A stretch of DNA of 64,000 bases. Origin: Thioalkalivibrio halophilus (lineage in GTDB: Bacteria > Pseudomonadota > Gammaproteobacteria > Ectothiorhodospirales > Ectothiorhodospiraceae). Both the position numbers and the translations under genes were made by a program. Below are positions 5,062 to 20,900 of the stretch, piece by piece. Under the pieces are notes generated by a model. That model made no database searches. It was not told the DNA's origin and saw only the letters and a program-made list of their open reading frames with translations. Positions within the stretch are counted from its first letter, which is position 1, and each line of letters opens with the position of its first letter. The DNA lies in NCBI RefSeq assembly GCF_001995255.1, contig NZ_MUZR01000035.1, forward strand, positions 1-64,000. The letters are read 5' to 3'.

Positions 5062-5137
5062 GGCCGGGTAGCTCAGTCGGTAGAGCAGGGGATTGAAAAT
5101 CCCCGTGTCGGCGGTTCGATTCCGTCCCCGGCCACCA
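5062..5137 (+). tRNA. tRNA-Phe (GAA anticodon)
   Basis: A 76-nt cloverleaf folds by eye: acceptor GGCCGGG pairs with CCCGGCC, the D arm is GCTC-AGTCGGT-AGAGC, the anticodon stem is GGGGA/TCCCC around loop TTGAAAA (anticodon GAA), and the T arm is GGCGG-TTCGATT-CCGTC. CCA is encoded. Its 3' end is repeated at 5904-5928, which marks it as the attachment site of an integrated element. Confidence 0.97.
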
Positions 5138-5139
5138 TT
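5115..5139 (+). repeat. attL-like copy: 25-bp direct repeat in the tRNA-Phe 3' end
   Basis: This block covers the T loop, 3' acceptor strand, CCA and two further bases. It is repeated without mismatch at 5904-5928. A tRNA 3' end repeated as a direct repeat is the hallmark of tyrosine-recombinase integration. The segment between the copies holds only the yefM-yoeB module and a def fragment, and no integrase remains. Confidence 0.75.
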
Positions 5140-5211: not shown

Positions 5212-5475
5212 TCAATAGTGGTATCTGCAGGAGATGATGGTGATGGACGAACCGTCCACGGCATAGACCAGGCGATGGGTGTCATCAATACGGCGCGACC
5301 AGAAACCAGCCAGGTTCTCCTTGAGAGGTTCCGGCTTGCCAATGCCTTCCAGTGGTGACCGCTTCACATCCGCGATCAACTTGTTGATCCGCCTGAGGGT
5401 CTTCCGGTCCTGGGCTTGCCAGTAGATGTAGTCGTTCCATGCTTCGTCCGTCCAGCAAAGGAGCCGACTACTCAT
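5212..5475 (-). CDS. yoeB: YoeB family mRNA interferase toxin
   Basis: This is the toxin of a YefM-YoeB type II system, a ribosome-dependent mRNA endonuclease. The 87 residues align well with E. coli YoeB (84): WxDxAWxDYxYW near the start, KPEPLKENLAGFWSRRI in the middle, HRLVYAV, and the C-terminal CRYHY. The residues equivalent to catalytic Glu46, Arg65 and His83 are present as Glu49, Arg68 and His86, so the enzyme looks intact. The start overlaps the antitoxin end by 8 nt. The module lies between the two tRNA-Phe repeats. Confidence 0.93.
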   Translation of the reverse strand: MSSRLLCWTDEAWNDYIYWQAQDRKTLRRINKLIADVKRSPLEGIGKPEPLKENLAGFWSRRIDDTHRLVYAVDGSSITIISCRYHY

Positions 5476-5728
5476 CCCCGTCTACCAGCTCACGCTCGGT
5501 GGCCTTTCCTGCCTTGTATTGCGCAATGGACTTGTTGAGATGCTCGGCATTCGCCGGGGAACGCAGAAGATGCACGGTCTCCATCAGGCTGTTGTAGTAA
5601 TCCAGCGACATTACCACGGCGTCTTCCGAATCGCGGCGCGTAATCACCGTGGTGTCGGCATCATCGACCACGCCATCGAGTACGGCTTTGAGGCCGTTGC
5701 GAGCCTCAGTGAATGACACAATCTTCAT
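5468..5728 (-). CDS. yefM: YefM/Phd family antitoxin
   Basis: The 86-residue antitoxin partner of YoeB and autorepressor of the operon. The ATG at 5726-5728 is chosen because it gives the typical Phd/YefM N-terminus MKIVSFTEARN and has an AGGAGG Shine-Dalgarno sequence just upstream. The N-terminal half is the DNA-binding fold (TTVITRRDSEDAVVMSLDYYNSL); the charged C-terminal half is the toxin-binding region. TGTACA operator motifs lie over its promoter (see 5739-5785), supporting active autoregulation. Confidence 0.92.
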   Translation of the reverse strand: MKIVSFTEARNGLKAVLDGVVDDADTTVITRRDSEDAVVMSLDYYNSLMETVHLLRSPANAEHLNKSIAQYKAGKATERELVDGDE

Positions 5729-5785: not shown

Positions 5786-5836
5786 TTTACGGGACAGGCC
5801 ACGGCATCGACTCGCCGGGAAGCCCCGTTTGCACTA

Positions 5837-5885
5837 TGGCACCATCGATGCCATGAGCGTTCGTCGTATTCTGCGTATGGGGCAC
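5837..5885 (+). pseudogene. Duplicated 5' end of the deformylase gene (fragment)
   Basis: These 49 bp match 9945-9993 at 48 positions. They hold the 16 bases before the def ATG and its first 11 codons (MSVRRILRMGH); the only difference is a synonymous T/C at 5870. After codon 11 the match ends abruptly and DUF2283-like sequence begins at 5891. The fragment cannot encode an enzyme and is best read as a scar of duplication or recombination. Confidence 0.9.
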
Positions 5886-5903
5886 GCAGATTCGTCCAGG
5901 TCT

Positions 5904-5928
5904 TTCGATTCCGTCCCCGGCCACCATT
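5904..5928 (+). repeat. attR-like second copy of the tRNA-Phe 3' end
   Basis: An exact 25-bp copy of 5115-5139. Its first 10 bp, TTCGATTCCG, also end a 23-bp stretch (5891-5913) that is identical to 10669-10691 inside the DUF2283 gene. The site is therefore a chimera of DUF2283-like sequence on the left and tRNA-Phe 3' end on the right. Confidence 0.85.
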
Positions 5929-5945: not shown

Positions 5946-7421
5946 TCAGCTTCTGGGTGGTCTGACGCCTCCCTTGCGGCGAATCCCGAATCCCACTCGA
6001 AAGATGTCCGGAATGTTGATCCGGCCTTCTACGGTTCTGTAGAGCACCCCCAGTTCCTCGAGATCGTCGACCAGCAGTTCGATATCCGCCCTTCCTTCCG
6101 GTTCGGACGAAAAACGGCGCGGCGGCAGCTTCTCGCGCGAAACCTCGAGAACCCTCTGCAGGATTTCCTCCGACCAGTGGCGGCGCAGATCGTCGACTTC
6201 CAGCGGCACGGTTGCATCTCGCAGGCCCGAAAGAAGCGGGGTGACCCACGGGTAATCCTCGCGGCCCAGCTCCGCCACACGGGTCTCCGAGGCTTCGGCC
6301 ACGCCGTGCTTGATCGCTTCATAGTGAAGCGGACTGGTGTGATCGGCATACTTTTCGTGGGTGCGGTGGGCCGCCTCGCGCAGCGCCAGGAGCAAGCTTC
6401 GCGGGGCGATACGGCCGTGGGCATCCGCCAGATGCCCCGTAATCCAGGTATAGGTATAGCCTCGACGGCGGTTGGTTCCCATATACGGCCCAGCCAGATA
6501 CTCCAGCAACGGCCATTGAAGCGATTCGCCGGCACGCACGACTGTCGGCACCCGCCGTTCGCCCTGCGCATGCTCCCAGGACTCACCAGTGAGCTGCTGC
6601 GCCCGGGCGGCAAACACATCACCCGCCGCCCCGTTGGCAAGCAGGTGAAACAGCAACCCGTAGAGATCCACCGGGCGCCACGCAAGGTCGACCCGGTTAT
6701 GCAGCAATTTGGAACTGTCGCGGAAACCGAATATGCCCCCGTCTTCTTCCATATCGGGCCGCAGAAAAAACTTCAGGCGGATGTTCGGATAGGGTCGACA
6801 AGCGAGCGCGACTTCGAGGGCGCCCCGAGTCAATGCGCGCACGGATTCCCAGCCGCCCCGGGCGATCGTATCGAGCGAGTCGAACACCAGCAGAAGGTAT
6901 TGTTCTCTGCGCGTCAGTTCGCGACTGGCCGCAGCCAGCAACTCGGCGAAGGCCTCAGGGTCGGCCTGCGCCCACCGGGCCGCTTCCGTCGCACGGCCAA
7001 ACGGCGCCTGCATGCCACAAACTTCGGCCAGTTGCCGTGCCAGCAACCCGCGCCATATGTGACGGGGCTCCAGCCCCTCGGCCAGAAGCTGCTCCAGGGT
7101 CTCCGCGTCGGGATGCTGACCCATGTGCGGATCCGTACTGAAACCGATCCGCACCACGGTGTTCTCCAGAGCCTTCGGCCCCCCCGACCCCACAAGACGC
7201 TGGCGGGTCGGTTGATCGAACAGGGCCGCCGTCCACACCGATTTGCCGGAACCCCGCATGCCGATCACGACCGTCGTGTCCAGACTCAGGGCACGGGTGT
7301 GGCTTTCCGGCACGTATAGCTCCCCCGGGCCGGGTGGCGTCAGGTTCTCCTGAGCGGAGACATCGGGCAATTCACACAACGCCGCCCGCAGGGCCTCCAC
7401 TTCCGATTGCGTGCCGGTCAC
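5946..7421 (-). CDS. P-loop ATPase of a three-gene conflict-type operon
   Basis: A 491-residue protein with a clear Walker A (GMRGSGKS, residues 54-61) and Walker B (YLLLVFDSLD, 175-184). This is the layout of AAA/STAND-type NTPases used in defence and signalling. The C-terminal third (about 395-480) is helical and may be a winged-helix or effector region; it ends in IPDIFRVGFGIRRKG. I do not recognise a named family. Its ATG overlaps the stop of the KGGVGR ATPase gene, and that gene follows a small HEPN-like gene, so the three form one operon. The stop lies 17 bp beyond the tRNA-Phe repeat. A role in phage or plasmid defence is inference from gene content. Confidence 0.72.
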   Translation of the reverse strand: MTGTQSEVEALRAALCELPDVSAQENLTPPGPGELYVPESHTRALSLDTTVVIGMRGSGKSVWTAALFDQPTRQRLVGSGGPKALENTVVRIGFSTDPHMGQHPDAETLEQLLAEGLEPRHIWRGLLARQLAEVCGMQAPFGRATEAARWAQADPEAFAELLAAASRELTRREQYLLLVFDSLDTIARGGWESVRALTRGALEVALACRPYPNIRLKFFLRPDMEEDGGIFGFRDSSKLLHNRVDLAWRPVDLYGLLFHLLANGAAGDVFAARAQQLTGESWEHAQGERRVPTVVRAGESLQWPLLEYLAGPYMGTNRRRGYTYTWITGHLADAHGRIAPRSLLLALREAAHRTHEKYADHTSPLHYEAIKHGVAEASETRVAELGREDYPWVTPLLSGLRDATVPLEVDDLRRHWSEEILQRVLEVSREKLPPRRFSSEPEGRADIELLVDDLEELGVLYRTVEGRINIPDIFRVGFGIRRKGGVRPPRS

Positions 7422-8737
7422 TCCTCACCCCTCCGGACACCGAGCTTCAGGCGCTCCCCGGCCACGCGGAAAAACTCGCCGTAGACCTTGTCCAGAACCT
7501 GGGCCACCGGCATCTCCGCAGGCATATTGAACGTGGCGCCTGACATCGATGTATCGGCGTACACCGGGATCGGCCAGTGCGGCATACCCTCGTCTTCCTC
7601 CTCCGGTGCAGACGGTCCGGCTTCGGCCTCTTCATCGTAGAGCCATTGCCAGGTCTCGTAGGAACGCTCCCGGAACGCGGCCTGTGCCTTCGGCGTGGAC
7701 CCCGCCATGGCACCGACCGTGCTCAACCGCCAGCGCAGATCCGTATCCGGCATGTTGAACGTGATGGCGGGTGACCAGCGCAGGTGCCGGAACAGCTGTT
7801 CATAACCCGCCCATGTCGGCGGATCGTCCCGGGCGAACAGAAACGCATGCGCCCCCAGGCGGGTCACCGCCGCCGCGCCGATGTCGTGCATGCCGGCCCT
7901 CGCATCAAGCAACGCCACGTCGAACGGCTCGATGCGGTCGGCCGCAGTTTGCAAAAGCGCATGCACCGCCTCCGCGAACCCGTATTCCGCCCCGTCGACC
8001 CTGACCGACAGATACGCACGCCCCAGCTTGGCGACATAATCCCGAGTCCGGGAACCAAAGGCCGGAGCCAGCCGGATCTCCCCGGGCGTTCCGGGTGCCA
8101 GCTCGACGCTTCCCAGCATCCCTTCGAACAACTCGCGATCAGCCTGCCCCACTCGGCCCTCGACCAGCCAGTCCACCACGCCGTAATCCGGCCAGGGGGA
8201 CGCAGCCTCGCGCCTCGGTCCCAGCAGGAAGTTCTGGACCCCGGGAGCCTCCAGGTCCAGGTCCACCACCAGCACCTTCATGCCCCGGCCCGCCAGATGA
8301 TGAGCCCAGGCCGCCAGCGTGGTTGACCGTCCCACCCCACCCTTCAGGCTGAAGGCCACCGCCGTTGGCAGCGGGGGCTGGTCGGTGACGGGCGTTCGCA
8401 ACCAGTCCTGGTTGTTCATCAGGCGGTCCACCAGACGAATTTCGAGGGTGTCGTCACCGTCGAGCCCGACCCATTCCGGCGACTCGAATACTTCCTCCGG
8501 CATGAGCAGGTCGTCGCGCGTCTGCACGGCTTCGTCGGCACCGGGGGCAAACCGTCCGAGGCGCGCATTCAGGTCACCGGAGAGCTGCGCGCGCTCCGGC
8601 AGCTCTTCCGCGGACACGTTCACCGCCAGAGAGACCCGACCCAGCAAATCCCGAATGGCGTACACACACTTGAAGCGGGCCAGTCGTTCACACGCGAACG
8701 ATTCCGCAATCTGGAGCGCATCGTGGAATCGAACCAT
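7418..8737 (-). CDS. ParA/MinD-like ATPase with KGGVGR Walker A variant
   Basis: A 439-residue protein with a SIMIBI (MinD/ParA-type) domain starting near residue 125. The P-loop reads KGGVGRS (132-138), so the deviant lysine is kept but the usual GK[ST] lysine is Arg. LVVDLDLEAPG (about 156-166) and VALLDARAGMHDIG further on match MinD switch regions. The first 120 residues are a separate domain I cannot name. A KGGVGR-variant ATPase family is recognised in annotation databases, to my recollection. It overlaps the downstream ATPase by ATGA and follows the HEPN-like gene by 3 nt. The Arg variant raises the question of whether it hydrolyses ATP or only senses nucleotide. Confidence 0.75.
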   Translation of the reverse strand: MVRFHDALQIAESFACERLARFKCVYAIRDLLGRVSLAVNVSAEELPERAQLSGDLNARLGRFAPGADEAVQTRDDLLMPEEVFESPEWVGLDGDDTLEIRLVDRLMNNQDWLRTPVTDQPPLPTAVAFSLKGGVGRSTTLAAWAHHLAGRGMKVLVVDLDLEAPGVQNFLLGPRREAASPWPDYGVVDWLVEGRVGQADRELFEGMLGSVELAPGTPGEIRLAPAFGSRTRDYVAKLGRAYLSVRVDGAEYGFAEAVHALLQTAADRIEPFDVALLDARAGMHDIGAAAVTRLGAHAFLFARDDPPTWAGYEQLFRHLRWSPAITFNMPDTDLRWRLSTVGAMAGSTPKAQAAFRERSYETWQWLYDEEAEAGPSAPEEEDEGMPHWPIPVYADTSMSGATFNMPAEMPVAQVLDKVYGEFFRVAGERLKLGVRRGEE

Positions 8738-8740
8738 CCA

Positions 8741-9124
8741 TTACCCCCTGAACAGGCCAGTTGCCACCAACAAGCGGCGCGCCCCTTCGCAGTGCCGCTC
8801 CACGGCGGCCTCCGGCACCGCGCTGTCTGCCACGTACCGCTGTTCGACATCCCAGTCCGCAAACCGCTCCTCGCCTGCCAGCTCTCCAGCAAGTCCCGGA
8901 AACTGGTTCCGGAATGCAGTCGCCTGAATCTTCCTCCACAGAACGTTGATGTGCTTGCGGTGCTGGTCCTCACGAAAATACCCGGCCCTCTTCAGCGCCG
9001 ATTTCAAGGCGCACTCGGCCGCAAGACCGTAGAGCTGGTCCGCGTTCTCCCACCGGCTCCGCTCGTCCAGCAAACGGGCATCTCCCCAGTGGCGGCGGGC
9101 TGCCTCGTCATAGTTCTCGTCCAT
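8741..9124 (-). CDS. HEPN-like small protein, first gene of the three-gene operon
   Basis: The ATG at 9122-9124 gives 127 residues (MDENYDEAARRHWGDA...) with a GTGGAG ribosome site upstream. The frame is open for 170 codons further but that extension shadows the DUF429 gene. The helix WENADQLYGLAAECALKSAL is a strong HEPN-fold signature (compare the AAECALKA helix of HEPN proteins), followed by HRKHINVLW. The catalytic Rx4-6H ribonuclease motif is not obvious, so it may be a non-catalytic HEPN or a divergent RNase. It is the promoter-proximal gene, with two ATPases behind it at 3-nt and overlapping junctions. It could be an RNase effector held in check by the ATPases; this is inference. Confidence 0.65.
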   Translation of the reverse strand: MDENYDEAARRHWGDARLLDERSRWENADQLYGLAAECALKSALKRAGYFREDQHRKHINVLWRKIQATAFRNQFPGLAGELAGEERFADWDVEQRYVADSAVPEAAVERHCEGARRLLVATGLFRG

Positions 9125-9260: not shown

Positions 9261-9888
9261 AGACGAAAGCGTACGGGTGTTGCGGTGGCTCGGCCGGGTG
9301 GATCCATGCGGAGCGGCCCCGGCTCCACTGCCAGGCGGCCCATGCCGCGGCGCAGGCGGCAACCGAATGGTCGCTGGCATCGGCGAGATCGAGCACCCCG
9401 TCCAGACCCTGCCGATCCAGCCAGGCCAGCAGGTCCCGTCGCGCGTCCGCCGCGTGCTTCATCGCCTTCAGGGTCTCGACCGAAGCCCCGCCCAGCGCCA
9501 TGGCCACCGTGGGGTGCACCTCCGCCACGCGTGCATCCGGGCGCTCGAAGGCGAGCATACGGCTGACCGCGACACCGCGCAGCGTCAGGTAGCTCATCCT
9601 CGGCGCGGAAGGCGCCATCACGGTGCCGGCCGGCAGGCCGCACTCCACCGCCAGGCGGCGCAGGGACTGATCGGACGTGCGACTGCCCCCGGTGGGCGAG
9701 TACGACAGCGGTGCATCCAGCCCCACCACCGCCGCGGCCGGCACACGCTCCAGGATCGCCTGATCGTCCGCCCCCGCAAGCAGCTCCCGCAGCCGGAGCG
9801 CCCCGCCGCGTTCAGCGAAAACGGCGAGGGACGTCTGCCCGGCACTCCCGGGCCCGGACAGATCCACCCCGACGATCCACTGCCCCAT
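9256..9888 (-). CDS. DUF429 family protein (predicted RNase H-fold nuclease)
   Basis: The ATG at 9886-9888 has a textbook AAAGGAGATCGC leader and gives 210 residues starting MGQWIVGVDLSGPGS. The VGVDLSG strand, the GLDAPLSY block, the EVHPTVAMALG segment and the late DASDHSVAACAAAWAAW helix match the DUF429 family, whose fold resembles RNase H/RuvC. The enzymatic role of the family is not established. It is divergent from def across 72 bp, so the two genes may share a control region, part of which (from 9945) is copied at 5837. Confidence 0.78.
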   Translation of the reverse strand: MGQWIVGVDLSGPGSAGQTSLAVFAERGGALRLRELLAGADDQAILERVPAAAVVGLDAPLSYSPTGGSRTSDQSLRRLAVECGLPAGTVMAPSAPRMSYLTLRGVAVSRMLAFERPDARVAEVHPTVAMALGGASVETLKAMKHAADARRDLLAWLDRQGLDGVLDLADASDHSVAACAAAWAAWQWSRGRSAWIHPAEPPQHPYAFVC

Positions 9889-9944
9889 GCGATCTCCTTT
9901 GGCCGGCTTCGAACGCGCCAGGCTGCGAACGTTGTTCTTCGCTG

Positions 9945-9993
9945 TGGCACCATCGATGCCATGAGCGTTCGTCGTATCCTGCGTATGGGGCAC
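9945..9993 (+). repeat. Parent copy of the duplicated def 5' end
   Basis: These 49 bp, 16 bp of leader plus the first 11 def codons, are repeated at 5837-5885 with one mismatch, 4.1 kb upstream and in the same orientation. Everything between the copies is the three-ATPase operon, the DUF429 gene and the tRNA-Phe 3' repeat. Confidence 0.9.
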
Positions 9994-10497
9994 CCCGACC
10001 TGCGTCGCGTGTGCCACCCGGTGGCCGATGGCGACTTCGACAGCGCCGGGCTGCAGGCCCTGGTGGACGACCTGGTGGACACCATGCACGCCAGCGAAGG
10101 GCTCGGCCTCGCCGCCGCCCAGATCGGCGACACCCGACGCGTGGCCGTGATCGAGATTCAGCCCGGCAACACGCGCTACCCCGATGCCGTACCCACCGGC
10201 CGCCTGGTGCTGGTGAACCCGGTGGTCACCGTGCTGGACCCGACGCCGCAACGCTACTGGGAAGGCTGCCTGTCCGTGCCCGGCCTGCGCGGCGAAGTCG
10301 CCCGGCCGCGCCACATCGCCGTCGACTACCACGAGCCCGACGGCACGCCCCGCCACCTGGAACCCGAAGGCTTCCTCGCCACCGTGTTCCAGCACGAGAT
10401 CGACCACCTCGACGGCACCCTGTTCATCGACCGGGTGACCGACACCACCCGCCTCGCCTTCCTCGACGAATACCGCGAGTTCCACGCAGAAGCATAG
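9961..10497 (+). CDS. def: Peptide deformylase
   Basis: Removes the formyl group from the initiator methionine of nascent proteins. The 178-residue protein has all three metalloenzyme motifs: GLAAAQIG (about 49-56), EGCLSVPG with the metal-binding Cys (near residue 102), and QHEIDHLDG with the two metal-binding His and catalytic Glu (near 143-151). It looks fully functional. In most gammaproteobacteria def is followed by fmt; here it stands alone inside an accessory island, so it may be an extra copy or an essential gene used as an insertion hotspot. Both its ends are duplicated nearby (5837-5885 and 11074-11180). Confidence 0.96.
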   Translation: MSVRRILRMGHPDLRRVCHPVADGDFDSAGLQALVDDLVDTMHASEGLGLAAAQIGDTRRVAVIEIQPGNTRYPDAVPTGRLVLVNPVVTVLDPTPQRYWEGCLSVPGLRGEVARPRHIAVDYHEPDGTPRHLEPEGFLATVFQHEIDHLDGTLFIDRVTDTTRLAFLDEYREFHAEA

Positions 10498-10515
10498 GGC
10501 TCACGCCCGGTGCAG
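10409..10515 (+). repeat. Parent copy of the duplicated def 3' end
   Basis: This 107-bp block holds the last 29 codons of def, the stop and the left arm of its terminator. It recurs at 11074-11180 with three mismatches in the same orientation. The 558 bp between the copies hold exactly the DUF4258-DUF2283 pair. Confidence 0.92.
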
Positions 10516-10531
10516 CTTACGGCGCCGGGCG
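10504..10531 (+). terminator. def terminator hairpin
   Basis: CGCCCGG at 10504-10510 pairs with CCGGGCG at 10525-10531, followed by CTTTA. In the downstream copy of the def 3' end only the left arm is kept, so that copy has lost the hairpin. Confidence 0.5.
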
Positions 10532-10557
10532 CTTTATGGCGTCAAAAAAAGGAGAGC

Positions 10558-10755
10558 TTATGCCGCAATACCCTCGACAATGAGATGGCTAACGTCGGTA
10601 CGCTGGCTTGCATGTTCAAAGGTGATCGCGCAGACATTGCCGCTGGCATCCACATCCAGAATGGTGTTTTCGTCCAGGTCTTTCGATTCCGCAATGTCGC
10701 TGCTGCGGAACTCGATGTACAGAGTATCGCTGTCATCGAAATAGCTGACTTTCAT
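10558..10755 (-). CDS. DUF2283 family protein (likely antitoxin-like partner)
   Basis: A 65-residue protein with the DUF2283 pattern: MKVSYFDDSDTLYIEFRSSDIAESKDLDENTILDVDASGNVCAITFEHAS. It is compact and acidic. Its start overlaps the DUF4258 stop (ATGA), so the two are coupled. DUF2283 and DUF4258 genes often lie together and are suspected toxin-antitoxin pairs; that role is inference. An internal 23-bp stretch (10669-10691) reappears at 5891-5913 in the chimeric junction next to the tRNA-Phe repeat. Confidence 0.8.
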   Translation of the reverse strand: MKVSYFDDSDTLYIEFRSSDIAESKDLDENTILDVDASGNVCAITFEHASQRTDVSHLIVEGIAA

Positions 10756-10988
10756 GGCCGGAACCCCCGATCAAAGAATGCATTGTGAATCGTCTCGCCA
10801 TCGTCCAGCAGAATCACCCGCAGGTACCGGCCTTCCATTGCCTCGATCCTGGCCCATCGCCTTATTCGGCCATCTGCCTGCACGTGCTCTCTCTCGGGAT
10901 GCTGCACCACGTACTGGATCCATTCGTCCTTGATTCTCGCACGGTCCGGCCTGCCCCGAGTCGCCCGGAAGTATTTCGTGGTTTTCAC
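10752..10988 (-). CDS. DUF4258 family protein (likely toxin-like partner)
   Basis: A 78-residue basic protein reading from a GTG at 10986-10988, with an AAGGA ribosome site about ten bases upstream. The WIQYVVQHPEREHVQADGRIRRWARIEAMEGRYLRVILLDDGETIHNAFFDRGF pattern fits the DUF4258/BrnT-like small RNase-toxin fold. It lies upstream of, and overlaps, the DUF2283 gene. The whole pair is framed by two copies of the def 3' end. Toxin activity is not shown by the sequence. Confidence 0.7.
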   Translation of the reverse strand: MKTTKYFRATRGRPDRARIKDEWIQYVVQHPEREHVQADGRIRRWARIEAMEGRYLRVILLDDGETIHNAFFDRGFRP

Positions 10989-11073
10989 AGATATTTTTCC
11001 TTTCCTGCATGAATCGCCGGCATCGTTCCCGTCAGGTAACCGAGGCGCCAGGCTGACTATCAGCCCCCCTCAC

Positions 11074-11180
11074 TCGACGACACCCTGTTCATCGACCGGG
11101 TGACCGACACCACCCGCCTCGCCTTCCTCGAGGAATACCGCGAGTTCCACGCAGAAGCATAGGACTCACGCCCGGTGCAG
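11074..11180 (+). pseudogene. Duplicated 3' end of the deformylase gene (fragment)
   Basis: These 107 bp match 10409-10515 at 104 positions, covering the last 29 codons of def, its stop and downstream bases as far as CCCGGTGCAG. No start or catalytic motifs are present. The copy sits just beyond the DUF4258-DUF2283 pair and ends 6 bp before the stop of the next gene. Confidence 0.92.
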
Positions 11181-11507: not shown

Positions 11508-11847
11508 GGTGTGCCTCCTTCGCGATTCCGCGAGGTTGCAACGGGTTTGCCGGAGCCGTTCCCTGCCCCTCTCCTTTGACGCTAGACGCCGTCCACGAGG
11601 CGGTCAAAGGTGACCCCGGCGGCGATGGGGAAGGATTCGTGTGGTCCATTACCGTTTGGTGGACTCCTTCAACAGGTGGCACACCGCAGGGCAAGCGGCA
11701 ATTGCCCCCGAAGTTCTCGCTCCCGATCAAGCTATTTGGCGGTCCAGGACGTCGGTTCAAGGGCCCGCCCACGCGCATGGAGAGCCGTAGGTCCCTGACT
11801 ACGGTGAAAAACTGGAGCCCGGACCGAGCATCAGCTACACAACAGCT
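11508..11847 (+). other. Gene-poor stretch, no supported feature
   Basis: About 340 bp before the hicAB promoter. Open frames here are short and lack ribosome sites, and no tRNA, terminal repeats or transposase motifs are visible. Its composition is less regular than the flanking genes and it may be decayed mobile DNA; I see nothing specific to support that. Confidence 0.4.
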
Positions 11848-11851
11848 TGAC

Positions 11852-11875
11852 GACTCGTACACAAATGTACGAGTC
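11852..11875 (+). promoter_or_regulatory. hicAB operator palindrome
   Basis: A perfect inverted repeat, GACTCGTAC (11852-11860) and GTACGAGTC (11867-11875), with a 6-bp spacer. A TTGACG -35-like hexamer (11848-11853) overlaps its left edge and the hicA start is 28 bp downstream. Position and symmetry fit a site for HicB autorepression. The -10 element is weak. Confidence 0.65.
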
Positions 11876-11903
11876 TATGGGCAAGGGATTAGTGGGCCGC
11901 AAC

Positions 11904-12116
11904 ATGAATGGAAACGAATACCTGAAGCGGCTGCAGAAGCTGGGAAAGAAAACCGGCACGCCGGTTCAACTGGTCGAGCACCAAGGGAAAGGGAGCCATG
12001 GCCGAATCTACTACGGTGACCGCTTCACGACCCTGAAGGACCGTAAGAAGGAGATCGGCCCCGGGCTGCTGAAAGCCATGTGCAAGCAGCTCGGTATCGA
12101 CCCGAACGACATTTGA
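11904..12116 (+). CDS. hicA: HicA family mRNA interferase toxin
   Basis: A 70-residue toxin with the double-stranded-RNA-binding-like HicA fold. MNGNEYLKRLQKLGKK forms the first helix and GKGSHGRIYYGDRFTTL the strand with the catalytic His (residue 32). The ATG at 11904 is preferred over upstream in-frame starts because those would lie inside the operator palindrome and give an atypical N-terminus. hicB follows after 10 bp. HicA cleaves mRNA independently of the ribosome in characterised systems. Confidence 0.88.
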   Translation: MNGNEYLKRLQKLGKKTGTPVQLVEHQGKGSHGRIYYGDRFTTLKDRKKEIGPGLLKAMCKQLGIDPNDI

Positions 12117-12126
12117 GGACAGAGCC

Positions 12127-12573
12127 ATGCGCTACGCATACCCCGTACAACTCGAACGCGACGAAGGCGGCCACTACCTGGCGACGTGCCGGGACGTGCC
12201 CGAGGCCCTGACGGACGGGGAATCTCAAGAGGAGGCGCTGCGCGAAATGGGCGAGGCCCTGGGCGCGGCGCTCGCTGGCTACGTCATGGAGGGGCGCCCC
12301 ATCCCCTCCCCCACCGACGCGGAACCGGGCGAGGCAATCGCGCCGGTGTCGCCCCTGATCGCCGCCAAACTCGCGCTCCGGGTCGCCATGCGGGCGGAAG
12401 GGGTCAGCAACTCGGAACTGGCACGCCGAATGGGCAGCCATGAGGGTGCGATCCGGCGGCTAATCGACGTGGATCACCGCTCCAGGATCGAGGCGGTCCA
12501 CGCCGCGATCGCCAGTCTGGGTCATGGTCTCGTCGTGGAGGATGCTCGCCCCTTTAAACCCGTCGCAGCATAG
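12127..12573 (+). CDS. hicB: HicB family antitoxin with C-terminal HTH
   Basis: A 148-residue antitoxin. The N-terminal half (MRYAYPVQLERDEGGHYLATCRDVPEALTDG) is the partial RNase H-like HicB domain that blocks HicA. The C-terminal half holds a helix-turn-helix (NSELARRMGSHEGAIRRLID), which presumably binds the palindrome at 11852-11875. It is the second gene of a toxin-first operon, the usual HicAB order. GAGGACAGAGCC upstream provides the ribosome site. Confidence 0.9.
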   Translation: MRYAYPVQLERDEGGHYLATCRDVPEALTDGESQEEALREMGEALGAALAGYVMEGRPIPSPTDAEPGEAIAPVSPLIAAKLALRVAMRAEGVSNSELARRMGSHEGAIRRLIDVDHRSRIEAVHAAIASLGHGLVVEDARPFKPVAA

Positions 12574-12608
12574 AGGGTAACCGCCAGCGCCCGCCCGGGC
12601 TCGCGGGT

Positions 12609-14456
12609 TCAGGCCTGCGCGGCCTCGCCGATGCGGCGGAGGAAGGGGGCCTGCGGCGGGCCGGTGACGATCAGCTCGTCCATGGCCCGGGTCATGGCCA
12701 CGTAGAGCAGGCGGGCCTCTTCGGCCTCGCGCTCCTCGGCGGTGTCCATCTCGCCCAGGCCGGTCAGGGCCACCACGGGAAACTCCAGGCCCTTGCTGGA
12801 GTGCATGGTCACCATCTTGACCGTGTCGGCCGGGGTGGCCGACTTCTGGCGATTGCGGTCCCCGAGGTTTTCCAGCGGGATGCCCGCACGCTCGAACACC
12901 GCGCGGATCTTGCCGGCGGCGGGCACGCGGCGGTGCAGCACGGCCATCTCGCTCCAGGGGCGGCCCTGTTCGTGCAGCCGCTTGAAGTGCCCGGCGATGT
13001 ATTCGATCTCCTGCGGCTGGGCGGGCAGGGGGATGATCGCGGGCTCCGGGCCTTCGCGGCCCGCGCTTTCCGGCGGCACGAGCGGGATGCCGTCTTCCTC
13101 GGCCTCCTGCGGGTCCAGCAGTTCGCGGGCGAAGCGGGTGGCCAGGTCCAGCACCTGGCGGGTGTTGCGGTAATTCACCCGCAGGATGGTGGTGCGCCCG
13201 CGGGCCTCCACGCCCACGCTGGAGAAGCTGAACCGGCTCTGGCTGCGGCCGTAGATCGACTGAGCGTCGTCGTACAGCACGAGCACCGAGTTGGTGTCTG
13301 GGTCGACCATCTGCGTGGCCAGCCGGAACCAGTGCGGCTCGAAGTCGTGGCCCTCGTCGATCATCACCGCGCCGTACTGCCCGCCGGGGATCTGCCCCTG
13401 GTCGACGCCGTCGATCACCTGCTGCACCAGCTGGTCGAAGAAGGCCCGCTTGTCCGTGTTATTCGGCGGGGGCGGCACGTTGTAGGTACGCAGCTGCGCG
13501 TGGCACCAGCGATGGAAGTTGTACACCACCACCTGATCGCCCGCGCCCTTCTCCGCCAGGATGGCCTGCAGGCGGTCGGCCAGGGTGCGGTTGTAACACA
13601 GCACCAGGATCGGCTTGCGCAGCGCCCGCGCCAGATGCAGGCAGCGGTAGACCAGGATCAGCGTCTTGCCCGCCCCGGCCGCGCCATGGATCACCCGGTG
13701 CCCGGTTCCCAGGCTGCGGGCCAGCTGCTCCTGCTGCAGGTCCATCACCCGCATCAGGTCCGGGAGCACTTCGGCCGGGGATTCGGTCTCGTCCGCGTCG
13801 GACGCATCGTCGAACAGGCTGCCCTGGCGGATGCGAATCTCGGGGAACAGATGGCCGCGGATGCGGTCGATCTGCGGCAGCGACAACCGGTGCGGGAACT
13901 GCACAGTGAACATGTCCCACAGCCGCTTCTGGAAATCCTCCGGATCCTGGGACTCCGTCATCTCGTCGCGACAGATGACCCGATTGGCCGGAATCACCTC
14001 GCCCAGCTCCTGCTGCTCGAACTGCGCGCGGGTAATGTTGGCCAGCACCACCCCGTGCCCGAACGGCAGCATCAACCGGCCCTGCAGCGAAGATCCCGGC
14101 GGATGCACCAGCTGCGGATCGCGCTCCAGTGGCTTGATGACCTGATAGGCATACTGGCGCGCCTGCTCCAGCGGGTTGGGGACCACTTTCAGGCCCCGGT
14201 CCGTCAGGATGGTCGCCTCCTGGCGATCGATCTGCCGGATGGTCTCCAGCCGCCAGTCCTTCACCTCCAGGATCAGCAGACCCCGCTGCGGATGCAGCAC
14301 GATGAAATCCGGATGCTCCGACCGCCCGCCCACCGGCACGTCGTACCAGCACAGGTAGTCATCCTCCAGGAAGTGCTCCAGTCGCCGCGCAAAGCGCTTC
14401 TCGCCCGACGTCATCCGCGGCAGGCAGCTGTTCAGCGAAGGTATGAGTGTTGTCAC
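12609..14456 (-). CDS. NERD-domain nuclease-helicase (SF1, UvrD/PcrA-like)
   Basis: A 615-residue fusion. The N-terminal NERD domain (about 10-115) has the nuclease-like HPDFIVLHPQRG...LEVKDW core. A superfamily 1 helicase follows: Walker A GAAGAGKT, Walker B VMIDEGHDF, VNYRNTRQVL, MHSSKGLEF and a final LLYVAMTRAMDEL. The GTG at 14454-14456 is preferred because it gives VTTLIPSLNSC, the usual start of this family, and follows a GGGAG ribosome site; the frame extends 20 codons further. Such proteins are frequent in defence islands, presumably attacking foreign DNA. It is divergent from the PD-(D/E)XK-like gene at 14687. Confidence 0.85.
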   Translation of the reverse strand: MTTLIPSLNSCLPRMTSGEKRFARRLEHFLEDDYLCWYDVPVGGRSEHPDFIVLHPQRGLLILEVKDWRLETIRQIDRQEATILTDRGLKVVPNPLEQARQYAYQVIKPLERDPQLVHPPGSSLQGRLMLPFGHGVVLANITRAQFEQQELGEVIPANRVICRDEMTESQDPEDFQKRLWDMFTVQFPHRLSLPQIDRIRGHLFPEIRIRQGSLFDDASDADETESPAEVLPDLMRVMDLQQEQLARSLGTGHRVIHGAAGAGKTLILVYRCLHLARALRKPILVLCYNRTLADRLQAILAEKGAGDQVVVYNFHRWCHAQLRTYNVPPPPNNTDKRAFFDQLVQQVIDGVDQGQIPGGQYGAVMIDEGHDFEPHWFRLATQMVDPDTNSVLVLYDDAQSIYGRSQSRFSFSSVGVEARGRTTILRVNYRNTRQVLDLATRFARELLDPQEAEEDGIPLVPPESAGREGPEPAIIPLPAQPQEIEYIAGHFKRLHEQGRPWSEMAVLHRRVPAAGKIRAVFERAGIPLENLGDRNRQKSATPADTVKMVTMHSSKGLEFPVVALTGLGEMDTAEEREAEEARLLYVAMTRAMDELIVTGPPQAPFLRRIGEAAQA

Positions 14457-14686
14457 TTCCGGGGCTCTCCCAAAGTTGCGCGGAATGGCCCCCGCTTGTC
14501 GCGAAAGCCCCGCCACCGCAATCGATCTCTATCCCCCACTCCGGCCCGAAAGGCCCCACTGACCGGCCCGCCGGCAAAGCGCCACTAGCGAAATCGACGC
14601 TGAACCACACATAGGCTATGGTTTCCACAAGCTGGCACGCAAGGATGCCGCGTTACCGATTCGCCCGGAGCCAGGAGGAACCAACC

Positions 14687-16060
14687 ATGGCCGAGCTACC
14701 CGAGTTCATCGAGTCAGGCGAAGCTGCCCGGCTGATCCCCGTCACCGCCGACTCCAACAAAGAACAACGAGCGGCCTCCATCGTCCTGGCGGCCATGCGA
14801 AGCATCTACGAGCTCCGCCAATCCATGCTGGGCTCCCTGGGCGTCCGTGTAGGCAACCGTGCAAGGCTCGGCGCCTGGACCGAAGTCACGTTCAAGGAAG
14901 AGAAGAGCGCGAAATCGAGCTCCAAAAAGAACGACCGCCCCGACGGCCTGCTGGTCCTCGATACCGGGAAGAAGCGTTGGACCGCCCTGATCGAAGCCAA
15001 GATCGGCAATGCCGAAGTGGACGAGGAACAACTCCAGTCCTACGTGCAGCAGGCCCGCGCTCACAAGATCGATGCGGTGATCACCATCACCAACCAGTTC
15101 GTGGCCCAGCCTACCCACCACCCGATCAAGCTGCCGAAAAACCAGACGCGCAACGTCGAGCTCTATCACTGGTCCTGGATGTACATCCTCACGCAAGCCA
15201 CCCTCCTGCTGGAGGCCGACGGGATCAGCTCACCCGACCAGCGCTTCATCCTCGCGGAAGTGACCCGGTATCTGAATCATGACTCGAGCGGCGTCAGCCG
15301 CTTCGACAGCATGAACCGGGAATGGAAGGACGTCGTCGCCAAGGTCAAGAATGGCGCGAAGCTGAACAAGAACTCCGAAGAGGTCGAAAACACGGTTTCC
15401 AGCTGGCACCAGGAACAACGCGATCTGAGCCTGGTTCTTTCGCGGAAACTCGGTCAGGCCGTCAAACTGCGGCTGAGCCGGATACACCGCACCGACCCGC
15501 AGGCCCGCCTGAAAAGTGATTGCGAGCTCCTCGCCTGCGAACACGTACTGCGCTGCGAACTGGACATCCCGCACGCCGCGGCCGAGCTTCACGTGGAAGC
15601 GAACCTGGAGAAGCGCGTGATCGTCACGAGCATGCGGCTCGACGCACCGAAGGACAAAAAGAAGACCAGCGCCCGCGTCAACTGGCTACGCCGCCAGCTC
15701 GACAACGTCGAATCCGAGGGCTTCTTCGTGAAGGCGATCCGTCCGGGCAAGGCCGAATCCACGCAGGCCCCTCTCGGCCTCGTACTGGAAGACCCTGAAC
15801 ACCTCGAGTCCGAGAATACCGAAGCCGTTCCAACTGCCTTCGAAGTGCGCTATGTGACCGATCAAGCCTCCCGCTTCTCCGGCAACAAGGTGTTCATCGA
15901 GGAACTTGAGCGTGCCGTGCCCCATTTCTACGAACAGGTTGGCCAGCGACTCCGGGCATGGGTGCCACCGCCGCCGAAAATGAAATCTGACCCAGTGAAC
16001 ACGGCATCCGAGACCGAACAGGAAGAAGAGGCCACCCCGCCAGACGACAGGCCGAACTGA
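14687..16060 (+). CDS. Predicted PD-(D/E)XK nuclease-like protein
   Basis: The start is the ATG after AGGAGGAACCAACC, giving 457 residues (MAELPEFIESGEAARLIPV...). The core RPDGLLVLDTGKKRWTALIEAKI has Asp86, Glu103 and Lys105 in the D...ExK arrangement of restriction-like nucleases, followed by EEQLQSYVQQARAHKIDAVITI, typical of the helix-strand after the active site. The C-terminal 200 residues are of unknown fold and end in an acidic tail. I do not recognise a named family. It is divergent from the NERD helicase, so the two may act as a pair; both point to nucleic-acid defence, by inference. Confidence 0.65.
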   Translation: MAELPEFIESGEAARLIPVTADSNKEQRAASIVLAAMRSIYELRQSMLGSLGVRVGNRARLGAWTEVTFKEEKSAKSSSKKNDRPDGLLVLDTGKKRWTALIEAKIGNAEVDEEQLQSYVQQARAHKIDAVITITNQFVAQPTHHPIKLPKNQTRNVELYHWSWMYILTQATLLLEADGISSPDQRFILAEVTRYLNHDSSGVSRFDSMNREWKDVVAKVKNGAKLNKNSEEVENTVSSWHQEQRDLSLVLSRKLGQAVKLRLSRIHRTDPQARLKSDCELLACEHVLRCELDIPHAAAELHVEANLEKRVIVTSMRLDAPKDKKKTSARVNWLRRQLDNVESEGFFVKAIRPGKAESTQAPLGLVLEDPEHLESENTEAVPTAFEVRYVTDQASRFSGNKVFIEELERAVPHFYEQVGQRLRAWVPPPPKMKSDPVNTASETEQEEEATPPDDRPN

Positions 16061-16114
16061 GGCAAGATGGCTCAATGGGCCTGCCCATGGCACCGTCACT
16101 GCGCTCTTGGGCTG

Positions 16115-16175
16115 CTGTAACGCAAAGCTAACCGGCGCGAGGTACGAGCGTCCGGTTGAGCGCCGAGTTAGGAGC
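16115..16175 (-). repeat. attC recombination site 2 (end of cassette B)
   Basis: Read on the minus strand, the site runs from R'' GCTCCTAAC through CTCAACCGG...CCGGTTAG to R' GCGTTACAG. The two L arms pair except for one extra base, the extrahelical base used by integron integrases. The R'' box is the exact complement of the left end of the same cassette (GTTAGGAG at 16571-16578), the signature of a mobile gene cassette. It overlaps the stop codon of the cassette gene. Confidence 0.82.
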
Positions 16176-16563
16176 TGGTACCCCAAGAATTGACTTCCCC
16201 CGACGCGGATACCCAATACACAGTGATCCCCTGCCTCCTACAGAAATCACGGAGGCCGTCCATGCGTCTCCGGTAATCAGAGGTATCAGGTATAGCTAAA
16301 GCGATTTCGTCTCCATTCTCCGGGTCTTCGGTATCTTTTATAAGGTTGAACAAACCGTGCGACAGGTTTCTCCATGCGTTATCCCACTGGTTCTTTGCGT
16401 TGCTCTCACCCTTGCACTCGATCGCAAGACGAACCCCTGACGTCGGATCCTTCCCCTCCACATCGATCCCATTTGCTTTTCCCATGCGCGGGATAACATC
16501 AATGTAGCCCTGACGCACAAGCCAGTCTGCCATGGTCGTTTTCACGTAATCTTCTGAAATCAA
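16168..16563 (-). CDS. Cassette B gene: restriction-endonuclease-like protein
   Basis: A TTG at 16561-16563, 7 bases after an AGGAG site, gives 131 residues (MISEDYVKTTMADWLVRQGY...). The frame runs 21 codons further upstream, but that stretch is attC DNA. The core GIDVEGKDPTSGVRLAIECKGE places Asp34, Glu49 and Lys51 as a PD-(D/E)XK-type site. GC content is visibly lower than in neighbouring genes. attC sites flank both sides, so this is a captured integron cassette. The function is presumably nuclease-like; the substrate is unknown. Confidence 0.7.
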   Translation of the reverse strand: MISEDYVKTTMADWLVRQGYIDVIPRMGKANGIDVEGKDPTSGVRLAIECKGESNAKNQWDNAWRNLSHGLFNLIKDTEDPENGDEIALAIPDTSDYRRRMDGLRDFCRRQGITVYWVSASGEVNSWGTSS

Positions 16564-16571
16564 CCTCTTAC

Positions 16572-16644
16572 TCCTAACGCCTGGCTTTGCGGCGCGCCGG
16601 AGCGCCAGCGTAGGTGCGTCCGACAACAGCCACTGGTTATGTGC
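16572..16644 (-). repeat. attC recombination site 1 (end of cassette A)
   Basis: On the minus strand the site runs from R'' GCACATAAC through TGGCTGTTG...CAAAGCCA to R' GCGTTAGGAG. The L arms TGGCT(G)TTG and CAAAGCCA pair with a single bulged G, the extrahelical base. R'' is complementary to GTTATGTGC at 17119-17127, the left end of the same cassette. The central variable segment is a GC-rich hairpin. Confidence 0.83.
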
Positions 16645-17104
16645 TGCTACGGCGCTGCACCACGGTTTTATTGATGATACGTCGATTGATTTTCTGCTTC
16701 CAGGCGGTTTGCTTGGGCGATAATTTCCGCTTCCTTCGGGTATCCATCAAAAACTTGTATTCTTGATCGAAGATGTAACCAAGCTTGAAAGCATGATAGA
16801 TCAAATCTTCGTTCGCATTGGCGGTATCATCGACTGCTATTCGGCGAAGCCCGGCGAAGAGGTTCCCGGTCTCAATACCGATAAATCGGTTAATACAGAC
16901 ATTACCGACGTAAGTTGTGTTGCCATTGATCTGATTGCGAATGTAGCAATGCTCTTTGATGTCCTGACCGCAGGGACAGCTATCAAATTCTTCGCTGACT
17001 TCCACGCCAATGAGCGCCCACTCCGTTCTCGCAGTATCAAAATCGCTTGCCACTGACAGGGGGGAGAATATGGGCAGCCAACCGTTCTCTATTGTGATCC
17101 ACAA
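16637..17104 (-). CDS. Cassette A gene: cysteine-cluster hypothetical protein
   Basis: A 155-residue protein reading from a TTG just after GGAGG; the spacing is short, so the start is tentative. It has a putative zinc-binding cluster (CPCGQDIKEHC with a further Cys in GNVCINRFIG) and a very basic C-terminus (RRKRKL...QKINRR...). Base composition is clearly more AT-rich than the surroundings, pointing to foreign origin. It fills a complete cassette: left boundary at 17126/17127, stop codon inside attC 1. I do not recognise the family; a nucleic-acid-binding role is only a guess from the charges and cysteines. Confidence 0.6.
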   Translation of the reverse strand: MWITIENGWLPIFSPLSVASDFDTARTEWALIGVEVSEEFDSCPCGQDIKEHCYIRNQINGNTTYVGNVCINRFIGIETGNLFAGLRRIAVDDTANANEDLIYHAFKLGYIFDQEYKFLMDTRRKRKLSPKQTAWKQKINRRIINKTVVQRRSST

Positions 17105-17118
17105 TTACCTCCCCATGA

Positions 17119-17127
17119 GCACATAAC
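17119..17127 (-). repeat. Left boundary of cassette A
   Basis: The minus-strand sequence GTTATGTGC is the exact complement of the R'' box at 16636-16644. In a cassette, the left end and R'' together rebuild the attC in the circular form, so this places the recombination point just after the G at 17127. Confidence 0.75.
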
Positions 17128-17136
17128 AGTAGATTA

Positions 17137-17178
17137 GACAGAATCTGTCATATTGGTGATATACAGATTCTGCATATC
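17137..17178. promoter_or_regulatory. Two adjacent palindromic operator-like sites
   Basis: GACAGAATCTGTC (17137-17149) is a perfect 13-bp palindrome. Nine bases on, 17158-17178 is a 21-bp palindrome GATATACAGATTCTGCATATC with one mismatched pair. Both share the CAGAnTCTG core. A third related site lies at 17432-17448. They look like binding sites of one dimeric regulator. Confidence 0.6.
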
Positions 17179-17431
17179 ATCCTGGCGTTCTCCTCTCGGT
17201 GGCACACCAATGCGGTAAACCATGCTTTTATCATGGTAGTGGACGTCGCGTCGAGTGGCAGGGCGCCCCGCGCGCTGGGACGAACGATTTTCGTCTCTTG
17301 GTCAAAGTCTTACAGGGGCCCTATCGGTCAACGTAGGGGAGACGTAGGGGCCCACGTTAAAGGCTTGCGGGTGGACTGATTCGGGGCGAGACATGGGAAG
17401 CGGGGGCTCGGGCGTGACAGAGCGCGGTGCT
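17179..17431. other. Gap between operator sites, no gene seen
   Basis: About 250 bp with no convincing open frame, RNA gene or terminator. It separates the two groups of CAGAATCTG-type palindromes and probably holds the promoter of the Nudix-helicase operon, though no clear -35/-10 pair stands out. Confidence 0.4.
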
Positions 17432-17448
17432 ATACAGAATCGGTATAT
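17432..17448. promoter_or_regulatory. Third CAGA-type palindromic site upstream of the Nudix gene
   Basis: TATACAGAATCGGTATA pairs at seven of eight positions around its central base. It resembles the sites at 17137-17178 and lies about 120 bp before the Nudix start, so it may control that operon. Confidence 0.5.
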
Positions 17449-17570
17449 CACGGTTATTGCAGCGTAGCGTGGCGAGCGGAGGCACCACGCGTGGCCCGAG
17501 AATTGGGCTTCCGCCGGGAGCTGTGGCGGCGTTCCCTGGTACGATCCGGCCAGAGACGAACCGGGAGCCG

Positions 17571-17987
17571 GTGTTGGAAACGCTCAAGGAAGCGAATCAG
17601 GCGGTGGTGGTCTGCGGCATTCTGGAGGACGCGCAGGGCCGGATCTTTGTGGCGCGTCGCGGGGCCGATCAGGCGCTGGCGGGGTATTGGGAGTTCCCCG
17701 GTGGCAAGGCGGAGCCGGGTGAGAGCCTGGAGGCCGCGGTGTGCCGCGAATTCCGCGAAGAGCTGGCGCTGGAGCTTCGAGTCGGGGAAGAGATCGGGCG
17801 CACGCCGATTCCGGGTAATGGGATCCTTGAGTTGGTGGCGCTGCGAGCGTGGACGGATGACGAGAGCCCGGTGCTGACGGTGCACGATCGCTGGTGCTGG
17901 GTGTCGCCGGCGGAGGCGCCTGGGCTCGACCTCGCGCCCGCGGACATCCCGTTGCTCGAAGCCTTTATTGCAGGACGGTCCGCATGA
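17571..17987 (+). CDS. Nudix hydrolase, MutT-like
   Basis: A MutT-type pyrophosphohydrolase. The Nudix box GGKAEPGESLEAAVCREFREELALEL fits GX5EX7REUXEEXGU and the preceding VARRGADQALAGYWEFPGG is typical of 8-oxo-dGTPase relatives. The frame extends upstream, but a GTG at 17571 (or TTG at 17574) after GGGAG gives a normal 138-residue enzyme starting VLETLKEANQAVVVCG. Its stop overlaps the helicase ATG (ATGA), so the two are coupled. Nudix genes coupled to DUF3427 helicases recur in defence islands, to my recollection. It may sanitise or degrade nucleotides during the response rather than serve normal repair. Confidence 0.85.
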   Translation: MLETLKEANQAVVVCGILEDAQGRIFVARRGADQALAGYWEFPGGKAEPGESLEAAVCREFREELALELRVGEEIGRTPIPGNGILELVALRAWTDDESPVLTVHDRWCWVSPAEAPGLDLAPADIPLLEAFIAGRSA

Positions 17988-20900
17988 GCCGGGATTGCGC
18001 CGCCAAGTCCCTGCCCGGGGCCGAATGGGTTGGCCTGCATGAACGGCTGGATACGCCGCGGGTGCGGCAGGCGCTGGAAGCCCTGGGGCTGGAGGACCAT
18101 GCCCGCTGGAGCCAGGGGCTGGAAGGCGACGATCTGGCCATGACCCTGGCGGCGGAACTGGCCCAGCGCCTCGCCGAGCGCGCCGGGGAACTGCGCGAGA
18201 AGGGGCATGAAGACTGGACCCGGGCCGTGCAGATCCTGGCGGATGCGCTGGCGGCGGCTGGGCATCCGCTGTCGGGCATTGAGGAAGACCTTCCGCTGCC
18301 GCCGTTTCGGCAGTTGTTGGAGGTGCGCTCTCCGACCGCCGACCAGGTTGGGCAGCAGGAGACACCGCGGCCGGATATACCGTTGGCGCTGTCCAGCCTG
18401 CTCACCGGGTCCGATCGCACGCCGAGTCTGGTGACGCAGATCGAGAAGGAACTGGCCAGTGCGGAGCGGGCGGACTGGCTGGTGTCGTTCATCAAGTGGA
18501 GCGGGATTCGCGCCCTGCGCGAGACGCTGAAGCGCTTTACCGAGACCCCGACGGCCGATGGCTCGCCCAGGCTGCGGATCGCGACGACCTCGTACCTCGG
18601 GGCCACGGATCTGAAGGCGATCGAGTTTCTGCTGGGCCTGCCGAACACCGAGATTCGGGTCTCGTACGACACGCATCGCACGCGCCTGCACGCCAAGGCC
18701 TACCTGTTCCATCGGAACACGGGGTTTGGCAGTGCCTACATCGGCTCGGCGAATGTCTCGCGGGTGGCGCTGGATGAGGGGCTGGAGTGGACGGCCAAGG
18801 TCAGCGAGTACGAGCTGCCGCATATGTGGCGCCAGATCGAGGCCTCGTTCGAGGCGCACTGGGCAGACCCGGCCGAGTTTGAGCCTCTAACCGCGGAAGA
18901 CCTGCCTCGCCTGCAGCAGGCGCTGGAGTCGGAATCCAGCGCAGGGCCAGCCGCGCAGAAAGACGCTGCCACATTCTTCGATCTGCGGCCGTATGCCTTT
19001 CAGCAGGAGATCCTGGAGGACATCCAGCGCGAGCGCCGTTCGGGGATCGACCGCCATCTGGTGATCGCCGCCACCGGGACCGGCAAGACCATGATCGCGG
19101 CGTTCGACTATCGCCGGTTTGCGCGCGAGCAGGCGGACAAGGGGCGGCCGTCGCTGCTGTTCATCGCCCACCGCGAGGAGATCCTGCGTCAGGCGATGGC
19201 CAGCTTCCGTCAGGTGCTGCAGGACAACGAATTTGGCGACGTGCTGGTGGGCGGGGCGCGCCCGAGTCAGGACCGCCACCTGTTCTGCACGGTGCAGAGC
19301 TGGAACGCGCGGGACCTCGATCGCCTCGACCCGGCGCATTTCGATTACGTGGTACTGGATGAGGCTCACCACAGTAGCGCCGGGAGCTATCAGCGCATCC
19401 TGGACCATGTGCGGCCCCAATGCCTGCTGGGCCTGACGGCGACCCCGGAGCGCACGGATGCCGACGACATCCGCCAGCACTTCGGCCAGCGTTACACGCA
19501 CGAGATCCGCCTGCCGGATGCGATCGAGCGTCGCCTGCTGGTGCCGTTCCATTACTTCGGCGTGGCCGACCACGAGTCCGTGGACCTGAGCCGGGTGAGC
19601 TGGCAGCGCGGGGGCTATGACGCGCAAGAACTGGAGGGCGTCTTCACCGGCAACCAAGCGCGCGCCGACTGGGTGTTGCGGCAGGCCCATGAACACGCGA
19701 CCGACCTGGGCTCGGTTCGGGGTCTGGGGTTTTGCATCAGCCGCGCCCATGCGCGGTTCATGGCCGAGCATTTTTCAGCCAAGCAGGTGCCCAGCGCGGT
19801 GCTGACCGGCGAGAGCCCGGACCACGAGCGCGAATCGGTGCAGCGCGACCTGCGCGAGGGGCGCATCCGCTTCATCTTTACCGTGGACCTCTACAACGAG
19901 GGCGTGGATCTGCCGGAGGTGGACACCCTGTTGCTGCTGCGCCCGACCGAGAGCCTGACGGTCTACCTGCAGCAACTCGGGCGCGGGCTGCGGCTGCATG
20001 AAGACAAGCCGCACCTCACGGTGCTGGATTTCGTCGCGCCGCAGGATCGGCGCTTTCGCTACGCCGCGCGGTTCCGTGCGCTCAGCGCGCGGCCGGAGAA
20101 GCGGGTGGATCACCAGATCGAGGAGGGCTTCCCCTGGCTGCCCAGCGGCTGCCTGATCCACCTCGACCGGTTGGCCACCCAGCGGGTCCTCGACAACATC
20201 CGCGCGCAGATCAACCGCCAGCGCCCGCAGATCGTGCGCGAGCTGAAGGGCTGTTTCCAGGAGGACATCGACTCCGCCAGCCTGCCCAAGATGCTCGACT
20301 GCCTGCATATGGACGACGCCGAGGACCTGCTGCGCAAGGACCTGCCCTCACGGCTGCGCGCGGACTGCGGTGGGGAGTCGACCGAGGCACTGAAACCGTA
20401 TGCCAACGGCCTCAAGCGCGGGCTGCAACGCCTGGTCCGCTGTGATGACCAGCAGTTGCTGGAAACCCTGCAAAGCCATCTGGCGGAATCCGCGTCGAAC
20501 GTGGATGAGCTCAGCGAGGAAGAACGACTCCGGCTGGCCCTCATCCACAGCACGCTATGGGGCAAGTCGCGCCCGGGGAACGGCGACCTCTCGTCGGTGG
20601 ACCGCTTCGTCCGCGAACAACGCCCGCTCTACCGGGATCTTCAGGAGGTCGCCGAATGGCGGCGCGAGCGCATGGTGCCGGCCAGCGGCATCACATTCCC
20701 GGAGCAGACGGGGCCGCTGGAGCTGCATGCGTCCTACACCCGCGAGCAGATCCTGCTGGCGCTGGGCCTCGGGAGCCTGGAGAAGCCGATTACTCAGCAG
20801 GAGGGTGTGCGGCATGTGCCGGAACGGCGAGTGGATGCGCTGTTCGTCACCCTGGAGAAATCCGAGCAGGAGTTCTCGCCCACCACCATGTACGAGGACT

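Follow-up and report, generated by a model that had tools for sequence, protein, structure and literature searches.

A 95-bp chimera of def2, DUF2283 and tRNA-Phe pieces at the tRNA-Phe/def2 locus of Thioalkalivibrio

Sequence comparison of a 64-kb stretch of DNA from a soda-lake Thioalkalivibrio genome (the window) has brought to light a 95-bp patchwork at 5834-5928, which is composed of pieces of three genes: an accessory peptide deformylase gene (def2), a DUF2283 gene and tRNA-Phe. On balance, this chimera appears to be the scar of successive insertions at a hotspot between tRNA-Phe and def2. The locus is of a recurrent and ordinary hotspot type; insertion hotspots and sequential displacement are already known. 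Its interest rests on the def2 remnants, which serve as a record of past insertions. If this reading is true, the fragments of def2 would reveal when, and in which order, a defence island was assembled from insertions that needed no integrase. The locus would then also be a natural test case for the one-sided addition of defence and toxin-antitoxin cassettes in free-living bacteria.

Parts of the chimera and genes around it

All parts of the chimera read on the forward strand. The def2 5' remnant (5834-5885, -19 to +33) matches 9942-9993 at 50 of 52 positions, its left edge being 19 nt 5' of the ATG and its right edge in codon 11; the stretch 5837-5885 within it matches the def start (9945-9993) at 48 of 49. 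The filler that follows, GCAGA (5 nt, 5886-5890), together with the preceding CAC possibly represents the 3' end of def2 (CACGCAGA, 10483-10490), to which it is collinear. Such a match arises by chance in about 4-5% of trials; the filler was therefore dropped as proof of a shrunken copy and is only suggestive. At 5891-5913 lies an interior fragment of the DUF2283 gene, antisense to that gene and identical to 10669-10691 (23/23). This 23-mer matches the local DUF2283 gene only, and DUF2283-type genes elsewhere in the genus differ inside it. The last piece (5904-5928) is a copy of the tRNA-Phe 3' end from the T-arm to 2 nt past the gene (25/25 against 5115-5139). It overlaps the DUF2283 piece by the 10-mer TTCGATTCCG, which occurs three times only in the window, at 5115 (tRNA-Phe), 5904 (chimera) and 10682 (DUF2283). 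The three matches, their coordinates and the presence of the 10 bp in both parents had been described in the first-pass annotation of this DNA, and all were reproduced exactly. It had also placed the def and DUF2283 pieces in the same order as in the intact locus, and they are indeed collinear with it in order and orientation.

Five exact direct repeats of at least 20 bp exist in the window and every one of them is at the chimera/def locus; three make the chimera and two belong to a def 3' duplication around the DUF2283 gene and its partner. In 20 simulated first-order Markov windows the longest repeat was 15-17 bp, and thus the matches of the chimera are not due to chance. The chimera occurs once in its own genome and was absent from the other genomes in a search of 30 Thioalkalivibrio genomes. 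A third, decayed def2 remnant right after tRNA-Phe in the same genome was also considered and rejected, as its alignment was no better than that of shuffled sequences (P 0.5-0.8).

The left border of the hotspot is tRNA-Phe (GAA; 5062-5137, forward strand, ARAGORN), which lies between yggX and the variable region here and in the compared Thioalkalivibrio loci. A YoeB-type toxin gene (5212-5475, reverse strand; Pfam PF06769, E 1e-41) and a YefM/Phd-type antitoxin gene (5468-5728, reverse strand; PF02604, E 3e-22) are the genes enclosed by the two 25-bp tRNA-Phe repeats (5115-5139 and 5904-5928). The def2 and DUF2283 pieces of the chimera adjoin this YoeB-YefM side, and the tRNA piece adjoins a candidate anti-phage operon, PDC-M28 C/B/A (5946-9121, reverse strand), which encodes an AAA ATPase, a ParA-like ATPase and a 126-aa protein (PADLOC E 6e-158, 8e-116 and 6e-35). 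The A, B and C genes adjoin each other in one orientation, and each PADLOC match is nearly full length. Contig C17 of this genome holds DNA with weaker similarity to parts of the operon.

A DUF429 gene (9289-9888, reverse strand; PF04250) separates this operon from intact def2 (9961-10497, forward strand; PF01327); another deformylase of this genome is on contig C6. The DUF2283 gene (10558-10755, reverse strand; PF10049) is followed by an overlapping ORF for a 78-aa partner with no Pfam match (10752-10988, reverse strand). On the far side of this pair there is a def2 3' remnant (11073-11180, forward strand; 105/108 against 10408-10515), whose alignment to the uninterrupted locus runs on to 11194. 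This 108-bp def 3' duplication, which encloses the DUF2283 pair (10408-11180 with both copies), was absent from the first-pass list of features. The pair recurs at other loci in three relatives (G009, G004, G005), and it may be a toxin-antitoxin-like cassette.

def2 and its remnants across the genus

The comparison set consisted of 30 Thioalkalivibrio genomes, the own genome among them, with relatives such as ALJ7, ALJ24, ALE31 and ARh2. The second, accessory deformylase gene def2 was found in 12 of the 30, the own genome included, and always downstream of tRNA-Phe. Three of these (G024, G025 and G029) have an intact def2 leader within ~10 nt of the tRNA-Phe 3' end, and this direct adjacency is presumably the ancestral state. 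The remaining nine have other DNA between tRNA-Phe and def2. Inserts at this position or behind def2 are toxin-antitoxin, defence or integrase islands, and most of them have left a truncated copy of def2. It follows that the chimera would be one scar of a recurrent process. The first-pass reading did not include the presumed ancestral adjacency of tRNA-Phe and def2, nor that insertions at this locus commonly leave partial copies of def2 behind.

Some form of deformylase gene was present in 29 of the 30 genomes, the exception being a 77%-complete assembly. An essential role of def2, by which only cells that kept it would survive an insertion, was considered and rejected: all complete genomes of the genus encode a further deformylase, and def2 was not detected in G008, G022 and G026. 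An apparent weak, decayed trace of the def2 5' end was seen beside the tRNA in G022.

Six relatives (G001, G002, G004, G005, G010 and G020) share the order of tRNA-Phe 3' end, decayed def2 5' remnant, and a HigB-like toxin gene with an HTH antitoxin gene (a HigBA-like cassette). Intact def2 comes next, except that in G004 it is preceded by another def2 5' remnant and an AbiEii gene. The alignment of these six shows one common event. As many remnants come from one shared event, the independent events would amount to no more than about seven. A def2 3' remnant lies behind YoeB-YefM in G004, behind 7.7 kb in G020 and behind the DUF2283 pair in the own genome. The closest relative (G012), in which the DUF429 gene also adjoins def2, has a DUF429 version of the pattern, with a DUF429 fragment, ~2 kb, the full DUF429 gene and def2. 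In G001 a truncated HigB gene is joined to ~45 bp of DUF429-type upstream sequence and def2, which is what one-sided replacement predicts.

Beyond the inserts def2 itself is intact; this, and the DUF429-type sequence upstream of def2 in G001, may reflect a homologous crossover on that side. The breakpoints within def2 vary: 5' remnants end at +33, about +100 and +73, and 3' remnants start at differing points. A fixed, site-specific breakpoint inside def2 was thus ruled out, and the variation argues against a site-specific enzyme acting on this gene.

Origin of the chimera

In the preferred reading, the recipient would have had tRNA-Phe, YoeB-YefM, def2 and the DUF2283 pair. An incoming block of DNA, possibly taken up by the cell, in the order tRNA-Phe 3' end, PDC-M28, DUF429 and def2 onward, would have undergone homologous recombination at its right-hand side (def2/DUF2283). 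Its left end, starting from the T-arm of tRNA-Phe, would have been joined illegitimately inside the DUF2283 gene of the recipient through the 10-bp TTCGATTCCG. The old def2-DUF2283 segment, now redundant and free to shrink, would have collapsed by deletion to the 95-bp remnant. The first-pass annotation had likewise proposed the deleted remnant of a second def-DUF2283 segment joined to the tRNA-Phe 3' end by the 10 bp. This stands as the most economical reading and gains strength from relatives with recurring truncated def2 copies beside tRNA-Phe, but the intermediate that it predicts was not seen: none of the 30 genomes has two def2-DUF2283 copies or, as that annotation had suggested checking, an intact def2-DUF2283 segment beside tRNA-Phe, and DUF2283 relatives are at unrelated loci. 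The first-pass observation was correct, and its interpretation, broadly borne out by the preferred reading, is partly supported and roughly right. A donor with PDC-M28 beside tRNA-Phe found no match in the genus. Other points also speak against the preferred reading, among them the shared origin of many of the remnants. One-sided homology usually brings deletion and not partial duplication (PMC3240628), and the def2-to-DUF2283 joint, unlike the DUF2283/tRNA-Phe joint, has no clear microhomology. End joining by Ku was rejected, as no Ku was detected. ComEC is present, but E. coli and other controls have it too, so that it is not specific to competence.

The tRNA piece had been taken for an attachment site. 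In that case the 25-bp copy would be the attR of an island that once integrated at tRNA-Phe and no longer has an integrase, and the def2 and DUF2283 pieces would be cargo acquired by it. Genuine integrase islands do exist at the same tRNA-Phe in G004 and G021, where the tRNA repeats measure 51 bp and a tyrosine integrase gene adjoins the repeat, and tRNA 3' copies of 28-30 bp are found just before intact def2 in G002 and G010. A sequence of 25 bp that stops shortly past the tRNA 3' end, like the copy here, is typical of an att core. However, there is no integrase on the own contig, the six of this genome being on other contigs, and the repeat has half the length of those in the islands with an integrase still present. 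The left edge of the repeat lies at the DUF2283 microhomology, def2 would be unexpected inside such an island, and breakpoints vary between cases. We regard this origin as rather unlikely; the tRNA piece could be no more than the left-hand terminus of the block that came in. Less likely again is template switching or short-patch illegitimate repair, in which a broken or stalled end copied def2, DUF2283 and tRNA-Phe in one event and a second def2-DUF2283 copy never existed. It would suit the shortness of the pieces (52, 23 and 25 bp), the presence of all parents within 6 kb and the 10-bp microhomology at one joint. It fits poorly with the collinearity of the def2 and DUF2283 pieces with the intact locus and with the two differences between the def2 piece and present def2, and the longer, decaying def2 remnants at a similar position in relatives favour remnants of real copies.

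Single-crossover integration of a circle bearing a cassette and part of def2 would give full def2, cassette and partial def2, the same geometry of partial duplication that is seen at both ends of def2, and in E. coli, circularisation of linear DNA followed by integration of this kind is known (PMC3240628). But different circles would have to capture pieces of def2 repeatedly, no such element was found, and a circle alone leaves the DUF2283/tRNA joint unexplained, which makes this origin very improbable. An assembly artefact is scarcely credible: although the genome is a draft of 97 contigs, the repeats are short and the def2 repeat is imperfect (50/52), the whole junction fits in one ordinary read, and similar remnants exist in independent assemblies of relatives.

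The successive insertions of the preferred reading would resemble homology-facilitated illegitimate recombination as described in Streptococcus pneumoniae, Acinetobacter baylyi and Pseudomonas stutzeri (PMC3240628), in which one end is joined by homology and the other by short microhomology, insertion is additive and the event is expected to be RecA-dependent and to occur during DNA uptake. The microhomology at such joints is 3-10 bp (PMC3240628), a range that includes the 10-bp TTCGATTCCG. The difference is that only fossils are available here, and that the anchor gene is partly duplicated with no coupled deletion. Another likeness is offered by the T6SS effector-immunity modules of Vibrio cholerae, which displace one another in sequence (PMC5361080), with repeated one-sided insertions and a string of older pieces beside the newest complete module; the same mechanism is proposed by the authors of that study. 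At the present locus, what remains is a truncated deformylase gene, and toxin-antitoxin and defence genes form the cargo. Like genomic islands at tRNA genes, the locus has a tRNA-Phe border and direct repeats of the tRNA 3' end at both borders, but it is without an integrase, its copy is of 25 bp and the def2 remnants are outside that scheme. Literature searches on deformylase as an integration site and on Thioalkalivibrio islands at tRNA genes yielded no report of the tRNA-Phe/def2 locus. More tentatively, def2, a dispensable gene beside a tRNA gene, could be serving as a reusable landing pad where one-sided recombination without an integrase piles up cassettes for toxin-antitoxin and defence systems to its left and right, the truncated def2 copies being a readable record of the order in which these arrived.

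Other features of the region

To the right of the def2 3' remnant, a larger defence region extends rightward with a HicA/HicB-like pair, a NERD-UvrD helicase gene and a type IV-like restriction enzyme gene (11847-21184). A homologue of this type IV-like enzyme, together with galE, is close behind tRNA-Phe in G022 (locus L036, 3453-6653 and 6677-7654). The galE gene is behind the variable region in six relatives and not in the window. Directly ahead of the def2 3' remnant in each of two genomes (window ~11040; locus L028 ~12325) stands the 12-nt sequence GTCAGGTAACCG, in opposite orientation.
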